The notes under the pieces: generated by a model
What the model saw: only the letters and a program-made list of their open reading frames with translations
What the model was told of the DNA's origin: nothing
The model's database searches: none
DNA from: Mesostigma viride
Lineage: Eukaryota; Streptophyta; Mesostigmatophyceae; Mesostigmatales; Mesostigmataceae
Assembly: GCA_009746045.1 (NCBI GenBank)
Contig: RPFO01000106.1
Span: 1,783,211-1,847,210 of the forward strand
Reading direction: 5' to 3'
Length of the DNA stretch: 64,000 bases
Part shown: positions 567 to 62,769 of the stretch, one piece after another
How the letters are laid out: each line of letters starts with the position of its first letter
Position numbering within the stretch: position 1 is the stretch's first letter
Made by a program: the position numbers and the translations under genes

Positions 567-3500
567 CTTCATTGATGCAGAGCGCCTTGCGAGACGCCAG
601 TGCGACCATCTGAACGTCCGCGTCACGGAAGGGCGTGCGGTTGACCTCGTTGACAAACTGGGACAGCTGCGAGTGCGTGCGGCTGCTGAAAAAGATCTGG
701 CACGTGTCACGTGATTAAAGTAGCAAAAATAAATTAGTTAGATAAAGTAAAGTACTTATAAAGAAAAAGTCAAAATTACCCTCAGATGAGCAATGCACAC
801 ATGCAGAAAAACTCGGGCAGGAATGAGAAGATGGGAAAAGCGTGCAAGTTGAGGCTAGCTGCTAGCAAAGCGTCAGTCCGTGACCATGGGTGCGGTATAG
901 TAGACTTCGCTGGGGGGCGGTGTAGTAGACCTTGCAAACCTTAACATTCGAGGATGGGAACCAACAGCGAGACGCGTGTCACAAAACGGGGCGTACACAG
1001 GTGAGCCGCAGCACGGAGGCATGTGCCTATCAGCAGGGGTAGTTCAGGCCACTGGATAGATATACTTCTGAAGTATGCATAATGCTCGGTATACATAGCT
1101 CAGGCCACTGGACATATATATACACCGCTGCTGGGTTTAGTTCAGGCCACTGGATAGACACAACGCAGCAGACGGAGCGCACCTCGAGTAGCAATGATGT
1201 TCTGCATGCGAGCGTTCACGATGCGGCACCGACAAGCAAAACCGGGCAGTTACTTGATCCATCCAACACGTTTACTGGGGAGAAAAAGGAAATAGTTGCC
1301 ACAATAGTTGCCACAATAGTTGCCACAATAGTTGCCACAGTTGCCAAGTCCATCGAGGTCTATTCCTCAATGAACAAGGGAAATTACTTAGCCCATTAGT
1401 TGCCTGTTGCCACAAAGATGTCGTTGACAAGGGTGAGAGAGGTGAGCCAGCAGTTAAACATACCTTCACAGCTGTGGCGTCCGTGCCCAGGTCAGTGCCA
1501 CTGTCGTAGCCATCGCTGTCGGATGAGACCGCGCCGTCGGCATGTGCCAGCCGTTTGAGGGGGGCGCGGGCAGCTGCTTGCGGTGGGGCACCGGCATACC
1601 ATGCAGGGAGGTTCAGAAACATCCCATAATAAGTCAAAGAAAGCCCCATTGCGCATCAGTGCAAGTAGTATTCAAAGCCAAGGCATGGCACATGCCAGAT
1701 GGCCTTGCGGCCCGGGATCCAAATCTTTCGAAAGCGGCCCACCTGGCCCACCCCGTTCACTGTAGCTTGAAGCAAATTTGCAGGAGCGCCAAAAAAGGGA
1801 GGAGAGGATTGAAAGTCTCATTGGGATGTTTAGGGCCGGCTTGCAAGCCTATGAGAAACCGAAACGCTTCCATCTTAAACGTGAAGGCAGATATACGATG
1901 CCGAGCTTTTTACAAAACCATGAGACCAACCCCTCCAGACATCGGGCAGGTCAGCTGATTTCTAGGCCAAGGACAAACGGCCTGCACAAGTTACTACTTG
2001 AATTGCTGACCATGTTACAAACGACCTGCAGAAGTGGTTCCCTTGACTATTGCTAACCACATTCCAAGTTACAAACACAAATATACTGCACAGGAGGTTA
2101 CCTTGGGTGTCATCCCATTCCCCCAGCAACAGCTCGGAATCTTCGTCTTTTCCCAGGGTGGAGCCTGCACCCTCCAAGGAGGCCCTCCTGGCCGCACTTG
2201 CCGATGGAGCACCAGGGTCAGTCCCGGCCGGGCCCTGCCACATACCGGATCGGAGCCAAGACAAGTGCTGTACTTTAGCAGCCCTTGTGTAGTGTGGTCA
2301 TCCGCGGCATATTCTCCGGAAGACCTTTCCTTGAACCCACATTTTCTGGGAAATAATCTTGTTTCCTAGTAGCCTTATACTACCAATGATTTGCTGGACA
2401 TGAAGAAGGGGTTACCAGAGCAGTGTACGGGATGTAACACTCGGCTAAGGAGAAGGGGTTACCAGAGAAGTGTATGGTATATAACACTCGGCTAAGGAGA
2501 TGGCGTTACCAGAGCAGCGTATGGGATATAACACTCGGCTAAGCGGTCCAGTGCTGCCTAGAATACAGCGCTGCCATATGTATACAAGCTCCGGCCATCT
2601 GAAATTGAAAAAGAAGAAATCCATTCATAGTTATCATTAATAGGATATAAATGCAGACACCAATAAAACTAATGACCGCATAAGGAAGCTGGCCGATTAA
2701 GGCAATATGCGCCTCTCCACCATAGGTCCGTACAATGCAACATCACGGTGGTGGTAACTCCACATTTTGAGAACATCAACCATGTGACCATGTCACCATA
2801 TTTTTCAAGCAAGCCAATGCCTTGCACGTTCTCTGGGGATCCGAGGCTGCAAAGACAAAACACAAGATCGTTCAATGGCATCGGCATTGGCCATCGTTCA
2901 ATGGCATTGGACCTCTCACGCATGACAGCATGGTCTAGAAAAAGAAAAGCTTGTCTCCTGTGCTTGCCATTTGCATCGAGAATTCGTGTAGTAAGTATCC
3001 ACCATCTCCCCACACCCCCTTCTGTCCCCAAAGCAGAAACTTTAGCACGCTCATGCAGTAGCTCTAGATTAAGGTACGACAAACCAACCGGATCGCTTAC
3101 AAAAAGTGAGGCGGCGCCGCTGGCCGCAACTCCCCTGCCGCCCCGTGCATTGGCCCTTGCTTTGAATGTTTCCACCTCTCGGCGCGCTAGCTCACGGTTT
3201 TTCTGCCGCAGCGTTCGGACATGCTCCTTATGCTTGCGCTCGCGGTCCACCTCGTATTCCAGCACCCACGCGGGCTCTGGGGGGGGGAGGGTAATAGGTA
3301 TGTACAAGGGGATGGGGGGGGGGAGCATGTGGTTCACTCGGCAGCGCCAATGGCAAACAACGTGGGTCGCTTGAGATATTATTCAGCACCTTGTTCATGT
3401 CAGCCAGGCGGCGGTATACAGTTATACTAACGATTAGTGGTAATCAGTTATTCATGTGCGACGTATACGAGTACTAGTGAATCTTATAAGATTCACTAGT

Positions 3501-7148: not shown

Positions 7149-10100
7149 TTACCAGAACTCAAGCTGTCGGTTTTCCATGCCCTTGATGTTGCGTTTGTGT
7201 TCATCAAACATGCGTTGGAGCTCCTGTTTTCATACAGCCATGGACAAGCAATAGCATGCAGCAAGTGCATCACATGTAGAAATTCCGAGGACACATGCAT
7301 GAGAAAACCACGCCATGCGCAATTGCAAACAACCCAACGCACCAGGCACATGAGTAGAGAGGCTACAGCAAAGCAGCCAACTTCGCACGAGCACATAGTA
7401 CCTTCACCTGAAAGCATGCGAGACCATCAGACAGGCTGGCAGTAACAAGGCTACTCACACAGGGGAAAAGCAGGGCAGGTTGCTGACTGGCAAATTATCC
7501 CACAGGAATCAGTGCAGCGACAGGCAGTAGACTACCAACAAAGGAAACAATTGGTTTGCGTGTGCATGCGACCGTGAACACTCAAACCCGTCAAGGGGTG
7601 TTCAAAGTGGATTTCTTGAAGTGCCATGACTACCTTTCAACCCATCATTTTGACCCATCCACTGCGTGTGCCACCCTATGACACGTGCGGCACCGCTCAC
7701 GTCATCAGCGCATAAAAGTTGTGCCCCCTGATTGAAAGTACCGAGCACCTTGTCGCCACTGGCATTATATTAAATATTCTACGCCTTCGATAGCATGAGT
7801 GGCATGGTGAGGCCTACCTAGTCAGCCATTTTGATGGGGTGCCGCCGGTGCATAACAGGCCTGCGACCGCACATTCAATTCCTATAACCGGAATACTGCT
7901 GGATATCTGTTCCCGCCTAACGTGCATGGCCATTGCGTGCCTGAAAATATTCACAGTAAAACACAGTGTCGCATACCATCAAGTAGCATGGTATTGGTCC
8001 ACCATCCACTCGCACCAGATGACCGACGTAATGCTGCCTACCTTGACACAACTCTGCCTACCTTCACATAGTTGGCGTGGTACTGGCCCATCCACGCACC
8101 CCATGACCGACATAACTCTGCCCACCTTGATGTAGCTGGCATGGTATTGGTCCACCTGCGCCTGCGTCGGCTCCGCGATCTTGGGCAGCACAAACGGCTT
8201 GCCCACCACGGTATGCAGCTCCAGGTTGGTGCGCGGCAGCAGCGGGCAGAACCAGGCGCCAAACGCCAGCACGCCCGGTATTGAGTGTCGGCCTAGCCAC
8301 AGGCGGAAACTCCAACCTCCCTGCAAGTTGGCCATGCAGCAAGAAGATGAAAGATCCAAATGAAGTTACCATCTTGGGAAAGGGGGCAAGAGGGGGCAAG
8401 GGGGCAAGGGGGGGCAAGGGGGGGCAAGGGGGGCCAAGGGGGAAAGGGGGGGAAAGGGGGGGAAAGGGGGGAAAGGCGGGGGAAGGGGGGGAAGGGGGCG
8501 AAAGGGGGGGAAAGGCGGGGGAAGGGGGGGAAGGGGGGAAAGGGGGGGGAAAGGGGGGAAGGGGGGGCAAGGGGGGCAAGGGGGGCAAGGGGGGCAAGGG
8601 GGGGCAAGGGGGGGCAAGGGGGGGCAAGGGGGGCAAGGGGGGCCGAGGGGGGCAAGGGGGGCAAGGGGGGGAAAGGCGGGGAAGGGGGGGAAGCGGGGGC
8701 AAGGGGGGGAAAGGCGGGGTAAGGGGGGGAAGGGGGGGCAAGGGGGGAAAGGGGGGGAAGGGGGGCAAGGGGGGCAAGGGGGGCAAGGGGGGCAAGGGGG
8801 GCAAGGGGGGCAAGGGGGCAAGGGGGGGCAAGGGGGGCAAGGGGGGCAAGGGGGGCAAGGGGGGCAAGGGGGGCAAGGGGGGCAAGGGGGGGCAAGGGGG
8901 GCAAGGGGGGGCAAGGGGGGCAAGGGGGCAAGGGGGGCAAGGGGGGAAAGGGGGGAAAGGGGGGGAAAGGGGGGAAAGGGGGGAAAGGGGGGAAAGGGGG
9001 GAAAGGGGGGGAAAGGGGGCGAAAGGGGCGAAAGGGGCGAAAGGGGGGAAAGGGGGGAAAGGGGGGAAAGGGGGGGAAAGGGGGGGAAAGGGGGGAACGG
9101 GGGGAAGGGGGGGAAAGGGGAAAGGAGGGGGAAAGGGGGGAAGGGGGGAAAGGGGGGGAAGGGGGGAAAGGGGGGGGAAAGGGGGCAAGGGGGCAAGGGG
9201 GGGCAAGGGGGGCAAGGGGGGGCGAGGGGCGAGGGGGGGCAAGGGGGGGCGAGGGGGGGCAAGGGGGGGGCGAGGGGGGCGAGGGGGGGAAGGGGGGGGC
9301 GAGAAGGGGGGGGCGAGGGGGGCGAGGGGGAGGGGGGGGGAAGGGGGAGGGGGGGAGGGGGGGAAGGGGGGGGAAGGGGGGGGAAGGGGGAAGGGGGGGA
9401 AGGGGGAAGGGGGGCAAGGGGGGAAGGGGGGGCAAGGGGGAAGGGGAAGGGGGAAAGGGGGGGAAGGGGGGGCAAGGGGGGCAAGGGGGGGCAAGGGGGC
9501 AAGGGGGGGCAAGGGGGGCAAGGGGGGCAAGGGGGGCAAGGGGGGCAAGGGGGGCAAGGGGGGGCAAGGGGGCAAGGGGGCAAGGGGGGGCAAGGGGGCA
9601 AGGGGGGCAAGGGGGGCAAGGGGGGGCAAGGGGGGCAAGGGGGGCAAGGGGGGCAAAGGGGGGCAAAGGGGGGCAAAGGGGGGAAAGGGGGGCAAGGGGG
9701 GGCAAGGGGGGAAAGGGGGGGAAAGGGGGGGAAAGGGGGGAAAGGGGGGAAAGGGGGGGAAAGGGGGGAAAGGGGGGGAAAGGGGGGGAAAGGGGGGGAA
9801 AGGGGGGAAAGGGGGGAAAGGGGGGGAAAGGGGGGGAAAGGGGGAAAGGGGGGAAAGGGGGGAAGGGGGGAAAGGGGGGAAAGGGGGGGAAAGGGGGGGA
9901 AAGGGGGGAAAGGGGGGAAAGGGGGGGAAAGGGGGGGAAAGGGGGGGAAAGGGGGGAAAGGGGGGGAAAGGGGGGGAAAGGGGGGAAAGGGGGGGAAAGG
10001 GGGAAAGGGGGCAAGGGGGGGCAAGGGGGAAAGGGGGGGAAAGGGGGGCAAGGGGGGGCAAGGGGGGGAAAGGGGGGGAAAGGGGGGGAAAGGGGGGCAA

Positions 10101-13100
10101 GGGGGGAAAGGGGGCAAGGGGGGGCAAGGGGGGGCAAGGGGGAAAGGGGGGGAAAGGGGGGAAAGGGGGGCAAGGGGGGAAAGGGGGGAAAGGGGGGAAA
10201 GGGGGGAAAGGGGGGAAAGGGGGGGAAAGGGGGGAAAGGGGGGGAAAGGGGGGAAAGGGGGGAAAGGGGGGAAAGGGGGGGCAAGGGGGGGCAAGGGGGG
10301 AAAGGGGGGGCAAGGGGGGAAAGGGGGGCAAGGGGGGGAAAGGGGGGCAAGGGGGCAAGGGGGAAAGGGGGGGAAAGGGGGGGAAAGGGGGGGAAAGGGG
10401 GGAAAGGGGGGGAAAGGGGGGAAAGGGGGGAAAGGGGGGAAAGGGGGGGAAAGGGGGGGAAAGGGGGGAAAGGGGGGCAAGGGGGGAAAGGGGGGAAAGG
10501 GGGGAAAGGGGGAAAGGGGGGCAAGGGGGGAAAGGGGGGGAAAGGGGGGGAAAGGGGGGGAAAGGGGGGGAAAGGGGGGAAAGGGGGGAAAGGGGGGAAA
10601 GGGGGGAAAGGGGGGAAAGGGGGGAAAGGGGGGAAAGGGGGGAAAGGGGGGAAAGGGGGGAAAGGGGGGAAAGGGGGGAAAGGGGGGAAAGGGGGGAAAG
10701 GGGGGAAAGGGGGGAAAGGGGGAAAGGCGGGGAAAGGGGGGAAAGGGGGGACGGGGGGAAGGGGGGAAAGGGGGGAAAGGGGGGGGAAAGGGGGGGAAGG
10801 GGGGGAAAGGGGGGGAAAGGGGGGGAAAGCGGAGAAAGGGGGGCCAAGGGGGTGTGGGAAGGGGGGAGGCTCAGAAAAAAATATACAAGTTATATGATCC
10901 ACTATAGTTACAGACACATGCAAATACACACACAACCAAGGGGACAAACGGAACATAGATAGACGGATACACTCACTATACCTTCATTTCCACCAACGCA
11001 AACCAATTAAGAACACGCTAGCGCAGAGGCAGGCTTGACGGGACACCCATATGGTGGGGATTGGTACGCAAGAACTTGCTTACGTGGTACGGATCACCGC
11101 AATGTCCAGCTTGAGCTGGTTGTCAGGTTGATATTATGCCCACTATCTTATAGTAATGGGTTGTGGCAGGGATCCTCGCAACGTCAAGCTTGTGCTAATG
11201 CTATCTCTCGACATGCACGCTCACCTGCACGTTGTAGTACAGGTCAGACTCGCCAAACGTGTACACGGGCACCAGCGTGGCGCCCTCCCGCAGACCGATT
11301 TTCACAAAACCCTTTCGATTCTTGAGGAAGAGGCGCTCCTTACGGATTTCCGTGACAGACGCCTCTTCAAAACCGCCTGCTCCCCGATACGTGTTTCAAA
11401 TGACACGTGTTTTGAAAACATGGCATTCAAGGTTTCAAAATCAATTTTGTCCATGGTAGAGGAAAGATAGAAAGTGGGCTGAGAGTGGGCTGAGAAGTGC
11501 GCCGCATGGAAAACACGATATCCTGTGCGGGATGAATTCATGTTACGTTTTCCACCGGCCTGGCACACAATCATCAGTCATGATGTTCTCGGTAACGCAA
11601 ATGGAATGCAGTTTTTTGAGAATATGCGAAGGTGCCGGCCGACTCCCTGACAAATCTTACACGGGTGAGATTGTATGTGTGGGTGCATGTGCACGCACGC
11701 GCGTGCGTGGTCGGGTGGGTATAAGGGGGTGAGGGAGGGGGTGGCATGAAGCAAACCGCCTACGCGATTTCCGAGAACATCTTCCTGGAACTCACAGGAA
11801 ACATATAAACACACTGTCTGAAGATTCTTCTGGACGCAACGCTCGGTTACTGACAAAATTTGCAAACCAATCCCTGTCTCCTGCACCTACGTATATGACA
11901 TCAAATTCTCAAATGCAGCCAACGCGCTCAGCTATGCCAAGCCAGCCAATTCCCCCACATATGTGTTGAGTGGCGGATGGAAGTGCGGGCAAACTATTCT
12001 AGAGACAGAGTATACTCGTACGACGACATTATGTGTACCATCGTTTTTTCTTCGCCGAGTATACTTTATTGTCCATGGGCACATGCGCGCAGCATGCTAC
12101 TAATGCCTATCGTGCAAGTAGTGGGGGGGACGTAGCACGAGTCAAAGCGCATTATATAGTGGCGCGACAGCCGCCCCAATCAACTGCAAATCATTCAAAT
12201 AGATTTGACTGCATGTGATGTCAAGTAAATATCATCCCATAACCATCATTGACACATGGCACAAAGGCAGGTGTCCTTGCCTTTGTCAGATCAGTCAGAC
12301 ATTAAAGCACCACCAGTTTACAACATCTGTTGCGCGTCCTGACCTGGCAAAATCGCCATCACCTCCCCCGCTTTAAGGCGCCGCACAAAACTGCCTCTGC
12401 TGGCAGATCCGCCGCAGGTGATCTGGCACAACCGGGATGGGGGGGGGGGGCAAACAGCAGATCACAGCGATGCCATACACATGCGTAGTTAAACAGATAC
12501 TCATAATTATTGCTCATACTGGCACTTGGAGTGTTCCATGCTGCAGGGCCGTCCACAAGACATCCAAAAAATGTAATAAGTATAATAATAATAATAATAT
12601 TAATAACCAACGGAAAAAAAGATGGGCATTGCATATCGTATTATGGGATAAATGTAAGAAAACCACACATTGGCATGCAAAACCGTTGAAGAATAAATGA
12701 ATGCATACAGCTAGGGCACTAAAACATGGCAACCTCCTCCTGGCCTTAAAACATGGCAACCTCCTCCAGGAACTTTCTTAAAATCAAACCTTCTAATACA
12801 TAAATCCAAAACATTAATAAGGCCAGAAAATAAGACCACGTAAGTGTGAACATCAGCGGAAACAGCCATGTGAAAATAGGAACTTGTCCATTCTCGTTGG
12901 TCTGTGCCAGTGCCCAGTTGCTGCCTTGTGCTCAAACCAGCATAGCTTACAAGAGAAACACAGCTTGCACGAAACCCAGCCAGCTCACACTCTTCAACAC
13001 AGTCCGCACTTTTGGATGTGTATTCACAATATGTATGTATATATACTACTATATGTATGTATATATTACTATATGTATGTATATAGTAATATACATACAG

Positions 13101-40183: not shown

Positions 40184-43100
40184 TCATTGGTGGGAATATA
40201 GGCTGGGGAGACGGGCGCTGACGGGCCCGGACCCCCCTGGGGCGCCCCAGTTCATCTGCTTCGAGACAGGGGCGGGAACAACCGCCCTTGGCATCGGCAC
40301 TGCAGCAGGGAACGGAGCCGACGGTGCCTGGCCCATCCCCGCCCCATGCTCAAACGCCTCCCGGCCCCCATCCATCACCATCGGAGTCGCCATACATGTA
40401 TCTTCAGACCTGGACCGCCCCCGTGCACTGCCCAAGGGGGCCATGGCCGGAGGGTACGGTACGTCCACGCTGCCCATCCGGCGCAGGCCGGGGCTCGGGG
40501 GTGACAGGGGCCCTGTGGGGGAGAGCGGGCCAGGGGGAGAGAAGGCGCCAGGTGGGGACAGGGTCCCACCGGAGCTCACAGCGCCAGAGCCGATGCGTTT
40601 CAGCTTGGTCGGGAACGCGCCACCTGTCATGAGCGGGTTCCCTTGCGGCCGGGAGGGGTCCACAAGGCGCGCCGGTTGGGGCCGCGAGTCGGTCAAGCTC
40701 CCCTGACAAAAATAGACCATGGACACGCGGCGAGGAGAGAGCGCGTTGGGTGAGAATGAGTCAGTGGCGGCCACCAGCAGAAGACGCTGCCGTGCTTCAA
40801 TGGCACTTAAGAGTATTTCAAGCAGGCATGTATGTACATGGTTTGCCTCTAATGTATTCACATCGCAAGAGACCACAATTAGTTAAGACCACATCCAAAT
40901 AGTATAATATTATGATACCAACGAGGCACCCACGGGCTTCCCTCACGAGACACACAAGTACGAGTATAAGCGCGTAAGTACAAGCATAGAACTGCTACAC
41001 GTGAAATAATGGAAGCAACACCTACGCTCACCTCGCATGACACAGCATACGACTAATGCCAACACACGTGTAATAATGAAAGCAATTGATAAGCTCACCC
41101 CGCATGACACAGCATACGACTAATACCAACACACGTGTAATTATGAAAGCAATACCTAAGCTCACCTCGCATGACACAGCATACGACGAATACCAATACA
41201 CGTGTAATAATGAAAGCAATTTATAAGCTCACCTCGCGAGACATGCCGCTCCGACCTGGTCCCCCCGCCGACCCCGACGGTACGGATCCCATCTCCCCGT
41301 GCTCCCTCAGCGGTGACGGCGTCCTCAGCGCCGCCGCCATCGCCACCCCGCTCTGCTGGTGCTGGTATACAGGCGACAGCATCGGCGAGTGCGAGCGGTA
41401 GCTCAGGTGGCTCGGGGACGACCCGGCGCCAGGTGGCGACGCCGGGTTGGATCCGGTCGAGCGCGCGGTGCTGGGGCATGTCCCTGGGAGGCCCTGGTGG
41501 TTGGGCACGTGCAGCGGCGCCAGCTCGTTGATCTCGCGTATCCGAGCCTCCTTGCGGTGGATCTTGATGTTGGCCCCTTTGAGCATGTCCTCGTACGCCG
41601 CCACCTTCCTGGGGGGTACAAGGCCGAGGGCGAAGAATGGAGCAAACGAGCAGCACAGAATCGCAGTGTCAAGATGACAGGGGTATGATACACCGCCACT
41701 GTCGTGGGGGTGTGGGGGGGTATGTAAGCAATTCGAGTACAATGGAAAGGGAAGCGAGGAGCGTGGAGGTTAAGTTGGAGGGGGTAGAAAGGAGCAAAAC
41801 AAGGTGTGCAGGATTGCAGTGTCGGGACCGGGGGGCCAAAGTACACCGTCACTTTCCCTGGGGCCGTTGACACAGGATCTGGGCATGAAAGTTGGATGGG
41901 GAAGCGAGGAGCGAAACGACAGGGATTGCCAGGTCAGGGTCCGCAGGGTTTGGTATAATACATGGGACCCATGGCAGCAAGCGAGGCCAGAGCGCAAGCG
42001 GTAAGAGCTGCAGGTACAGAGGGAGGTCGAGGAATTGTGGGGTGAGAGCAATCCCCCCGTTACAGAGAGCAGCCATAAGAAGCCAGGGTTAAAAGATGGA
42101 CGCAGAAGAGCTGGGGCGACTGCACACACTCATCGTCAGTACAATGTAATGTCTAGTCACCCGTAGTCCGCCAGGCAAGCGAGACAGCTGTCTCGTAGAT
42201 GCCCCTCATGAAGGCCAACCCTGATGCAAGCTTGCCAACCCTGATGCAAGCTTGCCAACCCTGATGCAAGCTTGTTAACCCAAACATTCCCTTGGCCTCT
42301 CCACTTAATCTCCGCCAATGCCCCCCTCACCGTCCCATCTCCACTCATCCCCTTCTCCTCACTATTCCATCGGCACTACTCCCCTTCTCCTCACCGTCCC
42401 ATCTGCACTCATCCCCTCCTCATCACCGTGCCATCTGCACTAACCCCCTTATCCTCACCGCTCGATCTGCAGCAACCCCCATCTCCTCACACTTCCATCT
42501 GCACTACCCCCTCCTCCTCACCGTGCCATCTGCTCCAACCCCCATCTCCTCACCGCTCCATCTGCACTACCCCCCTTCTCCTCACACTGCCATCTGCACT
42601 GACCCACTCCTCAAACTGCCATCGTCACCTCCCGTACTCCAACCCCCCCTTATTTTCTCACCGTTCCATGTCCGCACACTTGTCGCTGTACATGCGGTTC
42701 ACTTCTGCCAAACGCGCGTTCGACTCGTCGGCCAGCCGCAGCTTCTGGGTGGCGTTCGCCAGCTCGCTGCGCAGCCCCTCGCGCTCCTCCACCACCACCA
42801 GGTTGTCGGCCTCAGCCGCATGCAGCCGCTGGGCCAGCTCGTTGGCATGATTCTGCCAGTCGCACGCCTGCTGGCGAATGACCTCCACTTCTTGCAACCT
42901 GGGGTAAGATGTGTGTGTGTAGGAGGGGGGATGGCGGGGGGGGAGGGAAGTGCCGGGGGGGAAAGGAAGAGGAGGAAAAGGGGGAGAAACAAAAGTTTTA
43001 AGATCTTGTATGTCATCACTCTGTGCTTTAAGGTGCTAGATGACACAGCAAGGAACCTCCTTGAGAAGCTAAGGTTGTATGTCTGCGCTAGTGATAACAG

Positions 43101-45813
43101 CATGTGTTCATCTGTCATAGTTGATGTGCACGATGTGGGTGATAAGCTGTTGCGGAGCTTCCGCTCATACCTTCCGTAACGCCCTGCATTCTCAAAAGAC
43201 AGGCATCACCACATGAAGGGCAAAATGAACCTGGCAAGGGCAACGTATACGCCATACGCCGCTCTGAATAGCTCGACTATCTGCCACCATTTCTACTTGG
43301 AACCGGAATAAAAACATCTCCACCCGCATAATCTTTCCTTGCGACCTCAATGACCTGCCACCCTCTTTACTACCACCATCTCTTCGTAAACATTTCTGAT
43401 CGCAAACTACTCACGACCCCGTCATTTGCATCGTCTTGCCACCCCAGCAAAACAGATCCCCTTCACCTGACACCACAGACTTCTCTCCCTGTTACCACTC
43501 TCATGTTGACCACCCACATCACTCTCATGTTGACCACCCACATCACTCTCATGTTGACCACCCACATCACTCTCACATTAGCCACTGTAGCCACTGTAGC
43601 CACTCTCACATTGACCCCCCATTATCCCCATAACAGTGGCCACTCACTTCTCGGTCATCGTCTCTGCTTGCGTCCCGAACAACTCCAGCTGCTGCCGCAG
43701 CGCCGCGTTCTGGTCCGCGTACGCCTTGAGGGAGGCGTCCAGGTCGCCCACCTCACGGCGCGCGCGCGACAGCTGGCTACGCTCTTCGGCCAGCTGCGTC
43801 GCCAGGCCATCCGCGCGCACACACACCTGCGCGTGCTCCTGTTCCAGGGCAGACTTGTCACGGCTGGCGGCCTGGTGGTGGCGGTGTGCATGTCGGGGGA
43901 AGATTTTGAAAAACAGTGGAGGAGGTTAATACAGTTGCTAGGGGGCGACTTACACGGGATGTGAGTAGGTCTAGTACAGGGGTAAATAGGCGTTGATAGG
44001 GAAGTTCATGGGAAAGATGGGGGTGTTCATAGGGGTTTTTGGGGGGGAAGAGGGGCCCAACTTGTGGGCAGACAAGGACGGGAGAAAGGATCTCTGTTGA
44101 AGTCTAGGCTACAAGTCTCCAGCAACACCACAGGGTCGCTGTCATATCATCTTTCACGTGGTTGGAATGGCCGGGTTGTGAGCGGCGGCTACACTTTCTT
44201 GTTGAGGTTTGTACTGCAAGTTGAACCAATATGGGTTGCCAGGGAGGGAGATGGAGATGAAATTAGGCTAACACCCTAGCTGTGCTGCATCAACTGTATC
44301 CACTGTATCCACTGTATCAACTGTATCCACTGTATCAACTGTATCAACTGTGTCAACTGTATCAACTGTATCAACTGTATCAACTGTATCAACTGTATCA
44401 ACTGTATCAACTGTATCAACTGTATCAACTGTATCAACTGTATCAACTGTATCAACTGTATCAACTGTATCAACTGTATCAACTGTATCAACTGTATCAA
44501 CTGTATCAACTGTATCAACTGTATCAACTGTATCAACTGTATCAACTGTATCAACTGTATCAACTGTATCAACTGTATCAACTGTATCGATATGAACAAC
44601 ATTACTAACTAATTTAACCAATATAACCAATATTACCAATATTATACCAATACTCTACTACTGCTTATATCATCGCCGCACTGACAGCATCACAATGCTC
44701 CCCCAATATCCATGCTTTCCCAACATCGATGAGACAACCAGAGACCACAATATGGCTATATGGCAGGCAGGGATTAGTAAGAGGCAACGTAAGAATATGG
44801 ATGTACAGCAGACAGCTGGGAAGATCAGTTGTTGGGCATTGGTGGATCCATCCCTGGCCAAGCTTATATTGTTGACCCTAAGCTTGGAATCGGCGCGACT
44901 ATGCCAAGTGGCTGAAGATTAACATCCCAATCCCGACGTGAAGCAGGCAGGTCATCAGAGCATGGCTTGCTCACAGGCAACAGCTCCAAACGACACATAC
45001 ATATAACACTCACATTCCGCAAGCAAAAGCCACCAGCAAGCCTACAGCCCGAGCTCGTGGGAACACCCCCAGCATGCTGTCTGGGACTTAGTCACACTGG
45101 AATGGGTAGCATAAAACGGCTTTTTCCTTAGGCAGATTGCCACCTGTTGGCACCTTGCCACCTGCCCCTGCAGCGGCTTGCCATCTTACCTTATGCGAAG
45201 GTTTTATCTGGGTAGTCATGCATAAGTGCTGTGGCATAGCAAAATATGAGCGGCAATGATGACAACTTGGGGAGAGCGAGAAAGGCATGCTCACGTCACC
45301 CGGCTCTTGTCCTGTACATTTGCGCGCATCTCCAGGCTGCGAGTTTGATAGCTACGCAGCTATCGACTACGCAGACCTGGGAATAGAATCGAAAAGTACG
45401 ATGCTAACAAAATCTTCAGAATTTTCTAGAGACCCTAACGGCTACCGGATGGTGGCAGGGGCGCATGATGTCGCTCCAGGATTTGTGTCCAGCCAGCTAG
45501 CACGCTAGCTGCCGGCGGACGTACTCTGGGCTGTCTGCATTCTCGCTACCTTCCTCACCTCTAGTAAGGCGTCGCGCTCTTCAATAGATTGCCGTTGCTC
45601 TGCCACCTGGTTCTCCAGTTGCTTAGCATAATCTTCTTTTGCTGCAAGCCTTTGTTTCAATGTCTCCCGTTCTCGCTCCAGGGAAGCATTTCGGAGGTTT
45701 GTAGTGTGGAGGACGGTTGCCTGCACCCGGGCTTCGTCCATATCCACCGGCATTACGACCCCAGCCATGTCGGCAGGGGTGGAGCCAGCCCCTCTGCCGC
45801 CTGGCCTAACCAT
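40184..45813 (-). CDS. Coiled-coil protein of unknown function, complete
   Basis: Minus-strand exons 45813-45559, 43871-43648, 42898-42662, 41608-41233 and 40702-40184 join in phase to 1611 bp (536 residues). Residues about 30-270 are heptad-rich coiled coil: RERETLKQRLAAKEDYAKQL, LAEERSQLSRARREVGDLDA, LQEVEVIRQQACDWQNHANE, KVAAYEDMLKGANIKIHRKE and RIREINELAPLH. The C-terminal half is disordered and rich in Pro, Ser, Gly and Ala, with many Ser-Pro pairs (SPMLSPVYQH, LSPPGAFSPPGPLSPTGPLS), which could be proline-directed phosphosites. It ends LPSLYSHQ. No enzyme motif is visible; centrosomal, ciliary or vesicle-tether roles are possible but unsupported. The start is the first ATG of the only open 5' exon. 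Introns 3 and 4 contain tandem copies of the preceding splice donors; intron 1 holds a 9-bp array. It is divergent from SUOX. Confidence 0.82.
41035..41232 (-). repeat. Three 66-bp tandem copies of the exon 4 donor region
   Basis: Exon 4 of the coiled-coil gene ends CGCGAG|GTGAGCTTA. Three following 66-bp units each contain TGTCATGCGAGGTGAGCTTA (or GCGGGGTGAGC, GCGAGGTGAGCGTA) plus TTACACGTGT. The splice donor is thus present four times in tandem. Confidence 0.9.
42318..42661 (-). repeat. About ten tandem copies of the exon 3 end plus donor (30-bp unit)
   Basis: Exon 3 ends GACATGGAACG|GTGAGAAAA. The intron continues with units of the form GCAGATGGNNCGGTGAGGAG followed by A(A/T)GGGGG. At least five copies keep CGGTGAGG exactly; others read AGTGTGAGG or ATAGTGAGG. 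On the plus strand it appears as a C-rich repeat with false ORFs. Confidence 0.9.
43495..43625. repeat. 24-bp tandem repeat
   Basis: Three to four copies of CACTCTCATGTTGACCACCC, then shorter ACTGTAGCC copies, just downstream of the exon 2 donor of the coiled-coil gene. On the gene strand the units contain GTGAGAGTG or ATGAGAGTG, weakly donor-like. Confidence 0.8.
44285..44590. repeat. 9-bp TGTATCAAC minisatellite, about 33 copies
   Basis: Near-perfect 9-bp array in intron 1 of the coiled-coil gene, with TCC and GTC variants at the left end. It is open in every frame (VDT, STV and QLYQLYQ patterns), an artefact of the 9-bp period. Confidence 0.95.
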
Positions 45814-46991: not shown

Positions 46992-49900
46992 ATGGCTAGC
47001 ATTCTATCCCGCGGACCTCATGGTATTCGTTTGGGAAGAAATCACAGTGCCAGCATGGTTTTCCTGAGATATCTCTCCACGGTCCCCCAGACCCAGCAAG
47101 CGTCTGCTTCTTCTTCCGAGCCCTGGCATGGTCGGGCTGCAGGGATTCTTCTCGCTGCTGCTGTCGCAGGGGGCCTTACTGCTGCTAGCTTCATTGACCG
47201 GGAGTCCCGGCCCATTACGGCAGCTCCATCTTTCGCCAGTAGCGCACTGTCTCACTGCGATGCCGCGAAACCTGCCCCAGGTGCGCCTCTAATCTCCTCA
47301 ACTACACCGTACTCCCCTTTAATGTAGTCAACGAGAAAGCCTGTAGTGCCCTGAACATCATTCCGTTTGTCGCCTTCTACGAGGAACTCTATTCAACAGT
47401 AAACCTTATGACAGTGTACTTAGTCCTGCTTAATACGACGGAGCATGGTATAGTCGATCAGCTATGCACGCGCCCTCGTCCCACGGGATGCGCTGCCCAC
47501 CTCCTTGCATGGAGTACTGGCTACCATGTCTGTGGCGCCATTTTCCTGGAATTAGCGCACTGGGGCATGCACCAGGATGTTGGATGCCCAAATGATGAGC
47601 GCACTGGCTCGTGGCACAGCAAACAAGGGCATAGGGCATTGACCAGGTTGGCTGGTTGGCTCATCCTCTTTTCTGGCCAGACATCTTGCCCGACCACTGC
47701 TATTTTGTCCGCCCACAGCCAGTTGGTAAGCCCACAATTAGCTTGCGACTTTCAGCTTGCATGCTTGTAGTCCTCTGCGTGGAGTGAGTAAAATGGTCGC
47801 TGCATTGTTGGTAGGGTGGATTACCAGCGGGCTGATTGGGGGCTGGGGGATTGGGTTGGGCTAATGCCCCACTTCGTTGCTTCATATCCGGCTTTGGTAT
47901 CAAACACGACGCCTTCTGCCCCATATCCAACTTTGCTGTCCAACATGACGGCTTCTGTCCCCAGTCAGGCTTCTAGCTAGTTGTTTGCCATTTGTTAACT
48001 CTGGCACTTGTGGGTCTACTTTCCCTGTCCCCCTACCCCTAGCTAGTGCAAGCTAGTGCAAGCTAGCGCAAGCTAGTGCATGCTAGTCAAAGGGCGAGCT
48101 CGCTCCTTCTCGTTGTGTATAGGGGTGGAAGGTTCCCTTATTGGTACCCACGTGACGCAGTCTATGTGTTAATGAATAGATCCCCTTCCTATTGAATTAA
48201 TTAATCCCCCTACTATTGAACTAATTAGCCCCCTACTATGTAATTACTTAATCCCCCTACTATTGAATCAATTAGCCCCCCTATTATTTAATTAATTAAT
48301 CGCCCTACTATGTAATTAATTAGTTCCCCTACTATTTAATTACTTAATCCCCCTACCCCTCTGCCCCCGACAAATCTCGCCAGGCCCATGCCAGGCTGCC
48401 GCTCCCGACAAGTCCTATCCTGAAATAACCCGCGCCCAGGTGGCGGAGCACCGCACCCTGGACAGCATGTGGGTCACGTTTGGGGACGGCGTGTACGACG
48501 TGACGGCGTTCGTGGCGGGGCACCCGGGGGGGAAGGACCGCATCATGCTGGCAGCGGGGGGCGCGGTGGAGCCCTTTTGGTCCATGTACCGCGTGCACAA
48601 CACACAAGGTAATTTTATCGGGCAGCCTCGCACACGTTTTTTACTCTTTTGCTTGTCGATGTACCGCATGCACAACACACAAGGTAATTTTACTGGTCAA
48701 CCTCCCTCAGGTCTTTGACTCTTTTTCTGGTCCATGTACTGTGTGCCCCACGGGCAAGGTGCGTAGTCTTGGAGGGCATGCTAGCGACGGTGAACTAATT
48801 AGCCACAGCCAAGCCTTTTGTTGGGACATAATGTCCCTAAAGTTGCGCCAATGGTCTGGGTGCTGCAGAGGACGGCGTTGCACAGCAGCCGTTCACATAG
48901 TGGTCCATGGCTGTAAAATAATTTCCTTCTAAGTTGTGGAAGGTGTTGTCGCTTCACCATGAAATGAAGGCTGTAGTACTCTCCCAATATATTAGGGTAA
49001 TGTCTAATACACTAAGGTAATTTGTCATTTAAATTAGTTTGGCCGCCTTACACTTGCACGGTGCCTGCCCCCTCCTCCCCTCTTGGCCCCCTTCCTCCTC
49101 CTCCCCCCCCTTCCCCTCCCCCTTCCCTTCCCCTACCCCCCTTCCCCTTCCCCCTTCCCCTCCTCCCCCCCCTTTCCCCCCCCTTTCGCCCCCCTTTCGC
49201 CCCCTTTCGCCCCCTTTCGCCCCCTTTCGCCCCCTTACCCCCTTACTCCCCCTTTCCCCCCCTTACCCCCCTTACCCCCTTACCCCCTTACCCCCTTACC
49301 CCCCCTTACCCCCCTTACCCCCTTACCCCCTTACCCCCCTTACCCCCCCTTACCCCCCTTACCCCCCTTACCCCCTTACCCCCTTACCCCCCTTACCCCC
49401 CTTACCCCCCTTACCCCCCTTACACCCCCTTACACCCCCTTACACCCCTTACACCCCCTTACACCCCTTACCCCCCTTACACCCCTTACCCCCCTTACCC
49501 CCCTTACCTCCCCTTCTCCTCCCTCCCACCCCCTCTTCCTAACACTTGCATCAGCCACGCGGGACTTGCTGGAGACGTACCGCATCGGGACTCTTCCCGA
49601 GGGGGAGCGGGGCACGCCCATGCCGGACCTCGGGTCAGACATGTGGGCCAACCAGCCAGATCGGTCAGGTACGTGCTCACGCGCGTTTGTGGTTTCTTAC
49701 TGTTTGCTGCTACAAGCTGCTATCTAAATACTTGCTATTGAAATTGCGGATCAATCGGGTATGTACTCAACTGCATTCATGTGGTACGTGGTCACGCACG
49801 CTTGTGTTTTCCCGTTCTTTGCCGCTAAAGTCAGTGATTCAAAAAATTGCTATTTAAATTGCCGATGGCCCTTGTTTCCCCCCTTGTTTTCCATTGTTTA

Positions 49901-53300: not shown

Positions 53301-55806
53301 AAGCATCCTCTCGTCCCCCCCTTCCGTCCACGTCCCCCATTCACCATCCTACTGCCCTGTCTTTTTGTCCCTCTACACTCCTCACCCCAGCCCACCCCAC
53401 CGCCTCCCCTCTGTCTCTCCCTTTCTCCTCCTTCCCCTCCTTTTCTGGCTTTAATATTTACATACCCACATTCTTGACTGCCGGTTGCTTCTTTGTCATT
53501 TCTCTTTGCTGCTGTCCCAGTATGCACTGGCAACTGGATTCCCACATGCAGCCAAATAATCGCTGGCATCCTTACACTGTTTCATCCATGGCTAATCCTC
53601 TTCCCCCCCTCCCGCCCCCTCCCTTGGCACCCCCCAGCCTTGACCGGGACATGGAACATGCATACGGCGCCAGCATACCCATCGAGACGGCTACCAACCC
53701 GGCCGGTGATGTCCTGCTTGCGTTTGAGATGAACGGGGAGCCGCTGCCGATCGACCACGGCTTCCCCCTGCGGGTGATTGTGCCGGGGACGGTGGCGGCG
53801 CGCAGCGTCAAGTGGCTGCACAAGATCGTGGTGTCCAAAGTGAGCTGAAAGATTTATCTTTTCCAAAGTTGGCTGCATAAGATTCTGGTGTCCAAAGTAA
53901 GCCTGAAGATCATAAATACTAGTATATTACAAATATAATATAGATATTACAACGGTTAGCTGACCAAGATCATGACGTTAAAATTAGGTAAAGTGCGCTA
54001 TTTCCTATAAGGTGTCCAAGGTCGTGCTTTCCACGCTAAGATAAGGGAGTTTGATGTCTTAGTATTATATTACGCTGATCGAGTGCTATTTCCTATAAGG
54101 TGTCCAAGGTCGTGCTTTCCACGCTAAGATAAGGGAGTTTGATTTCTTAGTATTATATTACGCTGATCGAGTCCATGTTGTCCCAAGTAAGACCAGAGAG
54201 TTTCTTGAACCACTCTCTGGAGTTATCAATCTTTATACCCTATGATATGTTGGCAAACGTCGTGGTGCCCAAAGTAAGACACCACGTCACCACGTAAGAC
54301 GACGAGTCATGTTACACATTCATACAACACTGTGCCCGGATGTCCAAACTAGGAAATGAAAAACCGATCTTTTTTTAGCTCTACGACAAGGTGTCCAAGG
54401 TTGTATTTTTCAAAGTGCGCAAGATTTATGGGCGCCTGCTGCCTTTCCCCTCCGTTTCCTTGCGCAGGACGAGAGCGACTCCCACTGGCAGCAGGCGGAC
54501 TACAAGGGCTTCTGCCCAAGCTCGGACTGGGACAAGCTGGACTTCTCCAAGGCCCCTGCGATCCAGGAGATCCCCGTTCAGTCCGCCATCCTGTCGCCCA
54601 AGGAAGGGGACGCCAAGCCTGTCCGACCTGGTACGTAGGAATTAATGAAGCAAGCAAGAGCATCCGCGGTTCTTTAAACCTTTAATTTCTAGGGAGGTGG
54701 GGGACGAGCCATACAGCTAATTAGTCACGTGCTCCTTGGGGACTCGCGGAGCACAGTAGTACAAGGTTACATCTGGGAGATGAAGCTCGATGTGACTATC
54801 AAGCATGTTAAATAGAATAAATCCTCTGCATGCATGTCCCTTCTCTAGAGTTTGCCTATCCCTCTGTCTACATGGCTCATAAGAAACGTGCTGAAGTACC
54901 AATGTCTGTCGGGTGTGGGTTGAACAGGGCTACGCAAAGTCATCTGCATGTTCATAAACACAGCCGTTGTTTAAGATAACGTTTGATGTTAGGCATGTGG
55001 CGTGACTTTATGAACATCTGGCAAGCAGTGCCATTGGTAGAGCCTGCGAGCTGCCTGGTTTCTGGTAGAGCTCACCCTAGCGTGGCACCCGCTGCTATCT
55101 CCAGGGCCGTGGTGTGCTGCTGTATAGGTAACCAGGTGCAGCTTCTGCCTACCTTTTCCTGCTTCAAGGGGTCATGTTACTTTTGGCGCATGCTAGGAGG
55201 TAGCAAGGCTACCATGCTGCCGTTTGCCACGGTGCCAGGGTTTGATGCCTGATTACACTTAGGTAGCCATTCAAATTGCACTTCCAACATCTGCATGATG
55301 CGTGTTTAAGAAGCAGAGAGCATGAGGCAACTTGCTCATGAACTGCATGGTATCAACTCCCCGTCTCTCTGCATCCTGGCGACGCCCCTTTGCTGCGTAT
55401 CTTTTTCCCTTCTCCAGGGGATATGCTCCCTGTCGCTGGGTATGCGCTCTCTGGTGGTGGGCGGGAGATCATCCGCGTGGATGTCTCCGTCGACGGGGGG
55501 GAGACGTGGAGGGAGGCCACCCTGGAAGAGACCAGCCAGGCGCCGGGGAGGCACTGGGCTCTGCGGCGCTGGCACGCAAATCTAACCGTCCCTGCCATAA
55601 AATCAGAGAAGTCAGGCAAAGACGGGCAGAGCGGTACCGTGCGGCGCAAGCTGCAGCTTGTGTGCAAAGCGGTGGACCGTTCGTACAACGTCCAGCCCGA
55701 GCGGTTCGAGCCGATCTATAACGTGCGGGGTGTTCTGTCCAATGCGTGGCATCGGGTGGATATTCCAGTTGCTGAGACGGCCCACCACCCTGCTGCTAAG
55801 AAGTGA
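46992..55806 (+). CDS. SUOX: Sulfite oxidase, mitochondrial, cytochrome b5-containing, complete
   Basis: Oxidises sulfite to sulfate with a molybdenum cofactor and passes electrons through heme b5 to cytochrome c in the mitochondrial intermembrane space (animal-type family knowledge). Exons 46992-47280, 48384-48608, 49555-49668, 50092-50271, 51526-51596, 52691-52884, 53638-53839, 54468-54630 and 55418-55806 sum to 1827 bp, 608 residues, with every phase consistent. Residues 1-40 are Arg/Ser-rich like a mitochondrial presequence; 49-67 ([19 protein letters not shown]) form a membrane or sorting segment. The heme domain, about 108-185, has both ligands: His143 (HPGG) and His168 (YRVHN). The Mo domain includes [10 protein letters not shown] and the Mo-binding Cys300 in QCAGNRR. 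The dimerisation domain has [55 protein letters not shown] and [11 protein letters not shown]. Land-plant sulfite oxidase lacks the heme domain, so this is the animal-like form. Introns 2, 3 and 7 begin with copies of the preceding splice donors. Confidence 0.96.
48148..48180 (+). mobile_element. LINE 3'-terminal module in SUOX intron 1
   Basis: CCCACGTGACGCAGTCTATG, then TGTTAATGAAT, matches the conserved LINE terminus; the rest of the element is missing. Confidence 0.5.
48178..48362. repeat. AT-rich interspersed repeat (CCCCCTACTAT / TTAATTAATT)
   Basis: About seven alternating blocks of CCCC(C)TACTAT and (T)TAATTAATTA in SUOX intron 1, ending 20 bp before the exon 2 acceptor. It may be an expanded LINE tail, because it follows the LINE terminal module directly. 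Confidence 0.75.
48579..48765 (+). repeat. Two copies of the SUOX exon 2 end plus donor
   Basis: Exon 2 ends TGGTCCATGTACCGCGTGCA, CAACACACAAG|GTAATTTT. The intron repeats TCGATGTACCGCATGCACAA, CACACAAG|GTAATTTT (48655-48692), then TGGTCCATGTACTGTGTGCC, CCACGGGCAAG|GTGCG (48730-48763). The first copy still encodes YRMHNTQ, including the heme-ligand histidine. Confidence 0.9.
49080..49545 (+). repeat. Pyrimidine-rich CCCCCTTA array before the SUOX exon 3 acceptor
   Basis: About 460 bp of CCCCCTTACC, CCCCTTTCGC and CCCTTACAC units running directly into TTGCATCAG|CCACG at 49555. It acts as an extended polypyrimidine tract. Long proline/leucine/tyrosine ORFs across it are artefacts. Confidence 0.9.
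49655..49835 (+). repeat. Diverged copies of the SUOX exon 3 donor
   Basis: Exon 3 ends CCAGATCGGTCAG|GTACGTGCTCACG. Downstream blocks read TGCGGATCAATCGG|GTATGTACTC (about 49745) and GTGGTACGTGGTCACGCACG (about 49781). The latter is followed by CTTGTGTTTTCCCGTTCTTT, which parallels the sequence after the true donor. Confidence 0.7.
50306..50362. repeat. (AAT)n microsatellite
   Basis: About 18 AAT units in SUOX intron 4. Confidence 0.95.
51028..51150. repeat. GGGAGAGA minisatellite
   Basis: About a dozen GGGAGAGA or GGGAGGGA units in SUOX intron 4; purine-rich on the sense strand. Confidence 0.92.
52243..52620. repeat. 55-bp minisatellite, seven copies
   Basis: Unit contains CATCGGACCATGCACCCTCC, GACCCATGCCTGATCT and GATCTGGGCATGCAC, spaced at 55 bp from about 52243. 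It lies in SUOX intron 5, ending about 70 bp before the exon 6 acceptor. Confidence 0.95.
53815..54420 (+). repeat. Ladder of SUOX exon 7 donor copies
   Basis: Exon 7 ends TGGCTGCACAAGATCGTGGT, GTCCAAA|GTGAGCTGAAAGA. A close copy, TGGCTGCATAAGATTCTGGT, GTCCAAA|GTAAGCCTGAAGA, follows at 53866-53909. Later, more diverged blocks (GGTGTCCAAGGTCGTGCTTT at about 54011 and 54098 in two roughly 88-bp units; TTGTCCCAAGTAAGACC; CGTGGTGCCCAAAGTAAGAC; AAGGTGTCCAAGGTTGTATT) continue to within 60 bp of exon 8. Confidence 0.88.
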
Positions 55807-55844
55807 GATCAATGGTTAGCTCTTCCACTTTGCCTCATTCATTA

Positions 55845-56580: not shown

Positions 56581-56592
56581 ATATTCCTTGAT

Positions 56593-58602: not shown

Positions 58603-58687
58603 ATATTCCTTGATGGATGGGTGGAGTGGAAGGAGCCGCGTAATCGAACTAACCTAACTCTAATCTAGCTAGTCTAGAAAAGTCCTA

Positions 58688-59302: not shown

Positions 59303-59700
59303 AATTAATTAATTAACTAAACATACACGTAACGTACAGCTCGTTACGTGAGCATAAGTCCTCAGTATAGTCAAGGGGGATGGGATCGATCGATCGATGG
59401 ATGGAGCTAGCTATCTAAGACCTAGTTACGGGGTAGCACATGGGCACCACAGCCCGAATCACAGTGAATGCCATACTAGGTCACACGCGGATTGAGCCCC
59501 GGCCCACTGACTTGGGGTGGTCTCCTTCATTACTACCTGCCACCTATCCTTGCGGACCCGTCTGCCTCCAGATGACATGCAGACATGCCACGGGGCTGCC
59601 CTGGCGTGAGCCCATTGCGACGTGGGTAACACATATCCATGCCTAGCCTATCCCGGATCGAAGGTCCACAGGTGGCACCCCGGCCGCCGCTCGGCCCGGC
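59303..59700 (-). mobile_element. LINE 3' end (ORF2 C-terminus and 3' UTR), minus orientation
   Basis: Minus-strand reading RDRLGMDMCYPRRNGLTPGQ matches the plus-strand LINE at about 37390-37450. The 3' UTR ends GAGGACTTATGCTCACGTAA and a TTAATTAATTAATTAGG tail at 59303. It is 5'-truncated at about 59700. Confidence 0.75.
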
Positions 59701-60601: not shown

Positions 60602-60756
60602 TCAGGGCCACCAGTGCCGCCACATTCTGCCGCTCCACGTGCTCGTGCCCACCCACAGGTACTGTGCCAGCTGGCACAGCGGGTTATTGGACACTTGGTG
60701 CCCTGCCTGTTTGAGACTGCCCCAGCTCCCATCCTCCCCACTGACCGCCATGCTGC

Positions 60757-60800
<44 letters not shown>

Positions 60801-62769
60801 CTGCCACTGCCAGTGCAGCCATGATCCTTGCCATCATGAGCACGATCATAGGCTACCCCCTCGAAAAGGCTGCCGCCGTCACCCGACACGCCATGACCTC
60901 CACCGGACGTGCCACCACCAACAACACCACCAACACCACCACGGGATGTGCCGCAAACACCACCCGACATGCCACCATCACGGCCAGACAGGTCATCATC
61001 AGCCATGCCACCATCCGACTCGCCCGATGTGCTGTCGCTGCTGCCGCTGAGGCCACCGTCGTAACCCCATCCGGCGCCATCACTGGCCGCACCACCCGAC
61101 ACCCCGCTGTCACTGGCCAGAGGAGAAGCCGGCCTTAGGGCCCCCCTCGACATCAGCAGAGGCTTGTGATCCACGTGGAGCGTGGGCGGTGGCGGCGGGC
61201 GGTAGGCAATGTCGCCGTTGGTCGCCATGTGGACGGCCCGTACGCCCGCAGGAGCGTGGGGCACCGTCACTTGCGCGCGGTGAAACCGTCGCACCGCCTT
61301 GCCGGAGGAGGCTGCAGAATGGAAGGAAGGAATGTGACATGGAAGGGGGTTGGTTGAGAAGGGAATCCTGTTCTCATGTATGCATACTAGTATGGATGGG
61401 TTTAGCGGGCGGGCGGTGATGAACGGTGATGAGATCATCAGTTCAAGCAACGCAGAGAGGCATTCGGAAACATCGACAGTTAGACACAACATTGAGTGGG
61501 CATAAGAGTGCACCGCGGACACGGCTGCGGCGATGGACGGAAACTACACCCGACCACCTACCGTATCGACTGTGTTCTGTATCCTCTGTGAGTCTAGCTG
61601 TCGTCGACAGAATCACAGCAATGCAAGAGTATCGATCTGGGTGGTTGACATCTATAGCCATCGAAGGATCACGTGAATAGATCTGCAGGGTCCATGTTAC
61701 GTGAATTGAAAGGACCAGTACTGCACCCGCCATGTTTTGTGGACAGCCTGCCTGATGGCGCAGAATATACTACCATGCATCGCAGCGGGCAACACAAAGA
61801 GCACTACAGTAAGGAAAGCACTCATGTCTCAGTAAAAACTTCAACAATAAATGCACGATAAAGTTAAAACAATAAAGTAAAAACAATAAAGTTAAGAGGC
61901 CATGGGAAAAAATCCACGCACCGTACATGATAACATTTAAAAGGCATGATAATAACATTAAATGATCAATTTCATGTTGAAGTCATTTTAGAAATTATCA
62001 ACGCATGCTCAACAGGGCTTGTACAAGTCACTGCGTTGATTAACGATTAGACCACCGCGTCGTGCCGGTTTCAGTAGTAGCTACTAACAGCTACTAACAA
62101 CTACTACAACGAGCCGACCTGTCTACAACAGCCCATGTTGCCCAGTGCATGGCATGTGGGACATGCCACTAGGGACTCCTGAAGGCGCCTCGTCCCGCGG
62201 CACGAAGACCTAGAGCCCTGTGCCAGCGAATCTCAGGTAAGTACAGCACTGCATGCCCATCATGCATAGCATGCAAAACTTCAAGCCCAAGCCGGCCAGG
62301 AGTCTATAGTTCCACAAATTACACACCTCCCCGCATACACCATTTGTCGGACCCAATCGGCGCCCGCAGCACCACCGACGTGTTTTTTGTCACCATGTCG
62401 CAGCCCGTGCCCACAACAAAAATGAATGTGCTCAACCACCCCACCCTGCGATAACCCACCCTGAGCCTGCGGCTCCACGGACAACTGTGTCGCCTGTGAT
62501 CACGTAGCATCCCTTGCCCACCATTATAAAGTAAAACACCCAAAAGAGTCATGCCTTGTGGCACTCGAGCAACCCACCCTGCGCCTGCAACGCCACGGCG
62601 GTATCGCGCGTGACCATGTAGCAGCCCTTGCCCGGCTTGATCATCTGGAACAGCAACCACGACCCGCTCGCCGCGACCATGATGGAGTAAACGCGCCCCT
62701 TGCGCACGGGGTAGTCCAACAAGCCCCCTTTGTCATAGCTGTGGTTCACGTATGCCATCGCGCTGTGGA
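60602..62769 (-). CDS. Unrecognised protein, two exons visible (5' end missing or unresolved)
   Basis: Minus-strand exons 62769-62578 and 61311-60602 join in phase. The first exon starts one base into a codon, so an upstream exon is expected, unless translation begins at the internal ATG (MAYVNHSYDKGG). The first exon looks like a folded domain: LLDYPVRKGRVYSIMVAA, SGSWLLFQMIKPGKGCYMVT. The second begins ASSGKAVRRFHRAQVTVPHA. It then becomes a Ser/Gly/Asp-rich disordered tail (GGLSGSSDSTSGESDGGM) with 14 consecutive Asp and ends WSGRMWRHWWP. I recognise no family. The C-terminal exon may be spliced differently near 60650. Intron 1 begins with two diverged copies of the exon end plus donor. 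Confidence 0.5.
60757..60799. repeat. (ATC)n microsatellite encoding poly-Asp on the minus strand
   Basis: Fourteen ATC/CAT units; on the minus strand GAT codons give Asp14 inside the unrecognised gene. Confidence 0.93.
62330..62577 (-). repeat. Diverged tandem copies of an exon end plus donor
   Basis: The exon ends GGCAAGGGCTGCTACATGGT, with CAGGCGCAGG|GTGGGTTGC. Downstream the pattern recurs as GGCAAGGGATGCTACGTGAT, with CAGGCTCAGG|GTGGGTTATC. It recurs again as GGCACGGGCTGCGACATGGT, with CGGGCGCCGATTGGGTCC. Spacing is about 110 bp. Confidence 0.8.

Follow-up and report, generated by a model that had tools for sequence, protein, structure and literature searches.

Local Copies of Exon Edges and Their Splice Sites inside Introns of Mesostigma viride

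Introduction

How does an intron come to open with a second copy of the exon end and splice site that it follows? The question is raised by a stretch of 64,000 nucleotides from the streptophyte Mesostigma viride (hereafter the window; bases 1,783,211–1,847,210 of contig C1635, in an assembly of 440 Mb and 2,243 contigs). An original prediction, made from the sequence of this window, had seen the last 10–40 exon bases and the GT donor tandemly repeated at the head of seven or eight introns, in five genes on both strands. Following up these repeats in the window and in other parts of the same genome, we find that the copying of junction edges is recurrent and local and affects both junctions of introns, donors somewhat more than acceptors.

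Results

Copies at Both Junctions

The whole study covers one genome and 126 introns, mostly predicted and near kinase genes. Outside the window, 28 stretches of 10 kb were chosen, non-randomly, around kinase matches; two short kinase loci, L001 and L002, also belong to the sample. Introns were predicted with a custom small gene hidden Markov model (HMM). The 98 confident introns obtained there were joined by 28 of the 29 introns curated in the window; DDX11.c, the acceptor of which was only guessed, was excluded. A filter against low-complexity queries reduced these 126 introns to 80 donor tests and 85 acceptor tests; the donors removed include those of E.i2 (in an unrecognised gene near 62 kb of the window), CC.i4 (in a coiled-coil gene), SUOX.i6 and two introns of a gene at 22.5–32.7 kb.

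In the filtered set, 23 of 80 donor edges are copied, in direct orientation, within the first 500 bases of their own intron, against 0/80 for the reverse complement, 1/49 for the next intron and 2/49 for the previous one, and the earlier judgement that such repeats are not due to chance is borne out. Acceptor edges behave likewise at the other end: 15 of 85 are copied within the last 500 bases of their own intron (reverse complement 0/85; other introns of the gene 0/52 and 0/53), and donor specificity is not supported. Edge copies are carried by 31 of the 106 introns testable at one or both edges. The copies keep to their own end, since in introns longer than 700 nt the donor edge was found in the last 300 bases in 0/40 cases and the acceptor edge in the first 300 in 0/42; the exon side, for its part, has hardly any copies of intron edges (0/88 and 1/64). 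Outside the window, donors score in 18/57 (9 of 23 loci; reverse complement 0/57) and acceptors in 14/65 (10 of 25 loci), the window contributing 5 of the 23 donor matches.

Plant-like kinases appeared among the predicted proteins, a resemblance that points to the green lineage; one of them also matches ACT, at a score under the curated cut-off. On contig C1107 of this genome (G000), between approximately 652 and 1310 kb, 22 kinase-domain matches among those listed are all on the + strand, and 19 of these 22 lie in open frames of 1,039–1,265 codons.

Donor Copies in the Window

Apart from a simple-repeat array (9,001–10,799) and the CAG run that fills its last 600 bases, the window was read throughout, and tandem repeats were called with Tandem Repeats Finder (TRF). 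Reading frame and homology served to place the 29 introns. The 35 exon and 6 intron bases of each donor edge were then aligned to the intron that follows, with all other introns as the control. The own-intron score is above every cross-intron control in 6 of the 29 introns, and a seventh ties. The introns concerned, together with the DDX11 intron of the original prediction, are listed below with their scores.

SUOX intron 2, 48574..48768, + strand: real donor at 48609, followed by two further tandem copies with decoy donors at 48684 and 48759; unit of 75 bp (about 35 exon and 40 intron bases), TRF x2.3; score 33, control 12
SUOX intron 7, 53809..54424, + strand: real donor at 53840; diverged exon-end copies with decoy donors near 53897, 54187, 54274 and 54415, and one exon-end copy without GT near 53983; score 26, control 14
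DGAT2 intron 5, 7972..8160, - strand: real donor at 8125; decoys at 8061 and 8041; donorless copy at 7972; score 19, control 12
Coiled-coil gene intron 3 (CC.i3), 42325..42691, - strand: real donor at 42661; 32-bp minisatellite of nine units like the exon end plus donor; score 14, control 12
Coiled-coil gene intron 4 (CC.i4), 40997..41262, - strand: real donor at 41232; 67-bp array x3.6 with decoy donors at 41165, 41098 and 41031; score 14, control 14, a tie
Coiled-coil gene intron 2 (CC.i2), 43277..43682, - strand: weak donor-edge copies; score 13, control 12
Unrecognised 62-kb gene (E.i2), 62383..62640, - strand: real donor GT begins at 62577; copy of exon end and donor with GT at 62459, and a third, diverged copy seen by eye near 62383–62420; score 20, control 12, obtained with the junction curated at 62578, one base early
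DDX11 intron (DDX11.d), 1962..2110, - strand: intron-head repeats of about 45–60 bp holding only about three exon bases; score 9, control 12, not significant

Copies of exon end plus donor are accordingly located in SUOX, DGAT2, the coiled-coil gene and the 62-kb gene. The earlier count of seven or eight introns in five genes comes down to six or seven in four, still on both strands; the gene that drops out is DDX11, where the repeats start about three bases into the exon and represent a repeat of the intron head rather than a copy of the exon end. The + strand gene at 22.5–32.7 kb, provisionally labelled MED14 (two pieces tried had no Pfam match), has donor-edge copies in 0/6 introns. The spliced SUOX protein aligns to the solved sulfite oxidase 1sox over residues 107–597 with nothing inserted at introns 2 and 7, which indicates that the copies are intronic there and that the outermost donor yields the conserved protein.

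As to the genes themselves, DGAT2 falls in family PF03982, DDX11 holds a DEAD_2 domain, and the piece of the 62-kb gene that was tried gave no Pfam match. Intron 4 of DGAT2 holds a 2.5-kb GGGAAAGGG array (8376–10852), which gives long spurious open frames. A DDX11 exon seems, by eye, to end at a GC donor (AAG/GCAAGC) at about 585 on the - strand, beside a G-rich 40-bp minisatellite.

Anatomy of the Duplications

The median distance between the real site and its first copy is 102 bp at donors (22 introns) and 102.5 bp at acceptors (14 introns). Exon sequence makes up a median share of 0.32 of the unit, and 0/25 copies within 150 bp exceed a share of 0.60, for which uniform breakpoints would give a probability of 2.6e-7; the maximum across 34 copies is likewise 0.60. 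The exon extent of 48 donor copies in the larger sample has a median of 23.5 nt (range 2–81), in good agreement with the 10–40 bases first described. Among single cases, locus L015 shows a 101-bp near-perfect duplication across the donor, and in one intron of L016 four donor edges precede three acceptor edges, the real ones counted; in each set the real site is the outermost. Real sites were assigned by reading frame, plus homology where this was tested; splicing at the outer sites gives an uninterrupted SUOX protein and uninterrupted kinase domains at four loci, which were chosen for having copies.

Tandem arrays run across the exon–intron boundary in CC.i3, CC.i4 and SUOX.i2, and many other introns hold one to a few diverged, spaced copies that do not form arrays. 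One test found greater length in introns with hits (790 vs. 565, p = 0.027), and no rank correlation was found between intron length and copies (p = 0.21).

Fate of the Copies

Outside the window, copy and exon differ at nearly the same rate at each codon position (17/18/21% at donors and 20/15/20% at acceptors), and no frame is preferred among the offsets of 73 copies (26/20/27). Of 48 aligned donor copies, 37 carry GT, a figure aided by the alignment, and 16 of 25 aligned acceptor copies have kept AG. When copies were detected by the exon part only, GT was intact in 8/15 donor copies (9 if the one-base slip of E.i2 is allowed) and AG in 6/12 acceptor copies; the GT bases match in 20/30, little different from the 53/90 of the six exon bases that flank them, and the AG bases in 16/24 against 52/72 in the flanking exon bases. 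Of 20 decoys tested, taken from 24 GT-bearing donor copies outside the window, 19 would cause a frameshift or run into a stop if they were used.

The copies look like unused, neutrally decaying sequence. Of the roles suggested in the original prediction, retained donor redundancy is not supported by the codon-position and GT comparisons, and alternative donors are unlikely given the outcome of decoy use. In the alignments, the intron part of the copies often seems more worn than the exon part, a difference to be expected if selection maintains the real exon and the two intron partners are both free to diverge.

Other Features of the Window

A LINE-like retroelement with a reverse transcriptase (PF00078, E 3e-25) lies at 35096–37150, and a diverged retroelement piece on the minus strand is apparently present, by eye, at about 38–39.2 kb. 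A 48-bp unit repeated 27 times at 99% match (17016–18311), probably very young, is followed by a 56-bp x28 array at 20082–21646. A CAG repeat of 229.7 units at 100% match (63312–64000) runs off the end of the window.

Discussion

We consider it rather probable that the copies go back to silent tandem duplications across splice junctions, the inner copy decaying and the intron lengthening inward from both ends. Short tandem duplications of about 100 bp, approximately one-third exon and two-thirds intron, would arise across exon–intron junctions; on the donor side the upstream copy would remain the working donor, and on the acceptor side the downstream copy would remain the working acceptor. We propose that the spliceosome pairs whichever sites lie nearest to each other across the exon and that, the inner copy being without most of the exon, the mRNA would be unchanged and the duplication silent. 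The inner copy would then decay as neutral intron DNA, and repeated rounds would lengthen the intron, with donor copies left towards its start, acceptor copies towards its end and, occasionally, a minisatellite. In this scheme, we infer the use of the outer sites in RNA, exon definition as the reason for that use, and DNA break repair as the source of the duplications.

The low exon share of the surviving units fits this explanation, a copy with little exon being a weak competitor; the work of Reed and Maniatis in 1986 is said to offer a comparison on this point. In long introns, the splice sites nearest across the exon are reported to be favoured: under exon definition, minigenes in which the 5′ site was present as two identical copies spliced exclusively at the upstream one, and for 3′ sites the upstream preference was merely reduced (PMC9225289). 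This published preference matches both the position of the real sites on the outside and the rank of donors above acceptors. The rule predicts exon-proximal site use when sites compete and introns are long; it concerns splicing choice, derived from a splice-site database and minigenes, and not intron growth. A plausible source of short direct duplications is the fill-in by Pol alpha-primase at breaks with 3′ overhangs, which makes small tandem duplications (PMC8355091) that are not tied to splice junctions.

Several results weigh against silent duplication as the whole account, or against the sample on which it is built. If exon definition protects the mRNA, fewer copies are expected in short introns, and this was not observed: 2 of 10 donors in introns shorter than 250 nt have copies, like those of longer introns. 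Uniform duplication combined with tolerance also predicts no peak at the junction. A query scanned along introns of at least 400 nt at lags of 60–150 bp (lags of 25–60 were unused owing to self-overlap) scored in 19/71 at the junction, 16/70 at +10 and 18/258 over +120 to +240 pooled, with a cross-intron null of 0–0.5%. The ratio of donor to deep intron is 4.4 (confidence interval, CI, 2.7–10.7, bootstrap by locus), and a query that is three-quarters intronic still stands at 3.15x deep intron (CI 1.15–5.57). GC content was rejected as the cause of this excess, 17 copies being seen in 107 tests of the relaxed set where GC matching gives 5.2 expected, and exon conservation as its sole cause was rejected, or at least weakened, by a simulated detection advantage at donors of only 1.3x.

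Other points on the same side concern the firmness of the donor excess. The best-matching copies (score at least 28) show little of it, with 4/80 at donors and 7/273 in deep intron at +150 to +300. The contrast with the interior emerged only after low-complexity queries were dropped; with no complexity filter, donors score in 25/93, acceptors in 19/93 and interior points in 10–23 of 79–92 (12–20 at +35 to +250). With relaxed gene models outside the window, donors score in 16/79 and acceptors in 15/80, and the gene HMM recovered 22/29 curated window donors, 23/29 acceptors and both ends in 17/29. In the window alone, points at +80 inside the intron score in 10/29 against 6/29 for donors (acceptors, 2/28). 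The window by itself does not show donors to be special; this claim rests on the larger sample.

A junction-linked origin of the duplications is possible, if unproven in this sample. In its full form, splice junctions, donors above all, would start DNA duplications, so that introns lengthen at either end through copies of their own splice sites; we regard this as less likely than not. Its trigger might be splicing or transcription, an RNA–DNA hybrid or the exon–intron GC step, giving units of about 100 bp and one-third exon, a proposal that we hold to be doubtful to a similar degree. The original prediction that junctions nucleate minisatellites finds some room here in the donor ratio, and it goes too far as to the product, since true arrays are few and many introns with copies hold one to a few diverged ones.

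Tandem duplications might also occur everywhere, with junctions met by chance and merely better seen through the conserved exon edge. Such a background would agree with the abundance of complex near-tandem families (89 in 351,611 bp, 31 of them in introns), with unfiltered interior points not far below donors, with an acceptor excess over deep intron that is not significant (ratio 1.84, CI 0.92–9.28) and with the distribution of the best copies. We nevertheless find it unlikely as a full explanation: the donor peak stands above the interior points at +120 to +240, with a cross-intron null near zero, its ratio exceeds the simulated bias, and donor-spanning families number 10 where 2.5 are expected. 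Moreover, the units at edges are longer than those of the interior (median period 89.5 bp, n = 14, vs. 55 bp, n = 31; p = 0.0005, from hand-transcribed family lists), which suggests that edge copies are not simply general minisatellites. It is quite improbable that the extra donors and acceptors are decoys kept by selection for spliceosome recruitment or regulated alternative splicing. The GT count of the aligned donor copies, the strong-looking donors GTAAGC and GTAAGA in SUOX intron 7 and an in-frame copy 75 bp on in SUOX intron 2 would suit such a role; the near-equal mismatch over codon positions, the lack of frame preference, the GT and AG matches under exon-only detection, the loss of AG from a good part of the aligned acceptor copies and the damage to the protein from nearly all decoys tested would not.

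The coding-like edges of the copies might recall remnants of duplicated alternative exons, or normal exons, a reading to which we give hardly any weight. The exon interior is scarcely copied (scan, 0/60 at −80 and 2/63 at −60; separate test, 0/73 at −60), the exon share stays at or below its limit in every copy, and SUOX matches 1sox with no extra sequence at the introns concerned. Tandem duplication of a whole exon with both splice sites was rejected on the same exon share and on the lack of opposite-end matches. Introns may also be born when an exon segment containing AGGT is tandemly duplicated, or spread as introner-like mobile introns; introner elements are near-identical whole introns at many loci. 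Both are known routes via duplication or copying, and here both seem to us extremely improbable. The upstream exon end resembles the intron tail in 1/103 cases and the downstream exon start resembles the intron head in 3/102, for which intron gain by tandem duplication was rejected, and edges rarely match other introns of their own gene. Introners resemble the present case in intron-associated copying and differ in that the copies here are local to each intron; only 5 pairs among the 126 introns of this small genome sample share sequence, 2 of them over half of the shorter intron, which leaves little of the introner-like origin considered earlier. Apart from these comparisons, the introns L009:8981, L021:1673 and L028:4468 share 260–390 bp at 86–88% identity, probably a transposable element.

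Among known systems, the minisatellite of the interferon-induced transcript IFI6, reportedly described in Nucleic Acids Res. in 1995, lies in one human gene, and its short units are said to act as donors. CC.i3, CC.i4 and SUOX.i2 are like it in their donor-bearing tandem units. The present pattern differs in that it involves several genes, first copies about 100 bp off, often few and diverged copies, acceptors as well as donors, and decoys that are apparently unused; as to a donor in each unit, the GT counts given above are those of the aligned copies and of exon-only detection. A minisatellite with multiple donors is the proper description for a few arrays only.

In human genes of segmental duplications, internal tandem repeats at exon–intron boundaries are described as recent and variable and reported to form new introns, mostly with alternative transcripts (PMC2812944). 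The likeness lies in tandem repeats over junctions that alter intron structure, whereas in the present case an intron already in place apparently just lengthens, with no change in the protein. Intron gain by tandem duplication (PMC4974935) shares duplicated splice signals and an unchanged protein with our case; here no new intron is apparent, and the homology of exon end and intron tail that defines such gain is nearly absent. We found no published account of this junction-copy pattern in the open-licence literature, which is weak evidence of absence. We class the pattern as a variant of boundary tandem duplication that is frequent, two-ended, about 100 bp in unit and apparently silent.

Junction copies are a possible source of error for gene finders and RNA aligners. 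The lengthening of introns is usually credited to transposons and unbiased insertions. If the pattern described here is general, the edge copies would be a direct readout of intron growth, would allow a test of whether exon definition shields genes from junction duplications, and would provide natural experiments on how the spliceosome chooses between near-identical sites.

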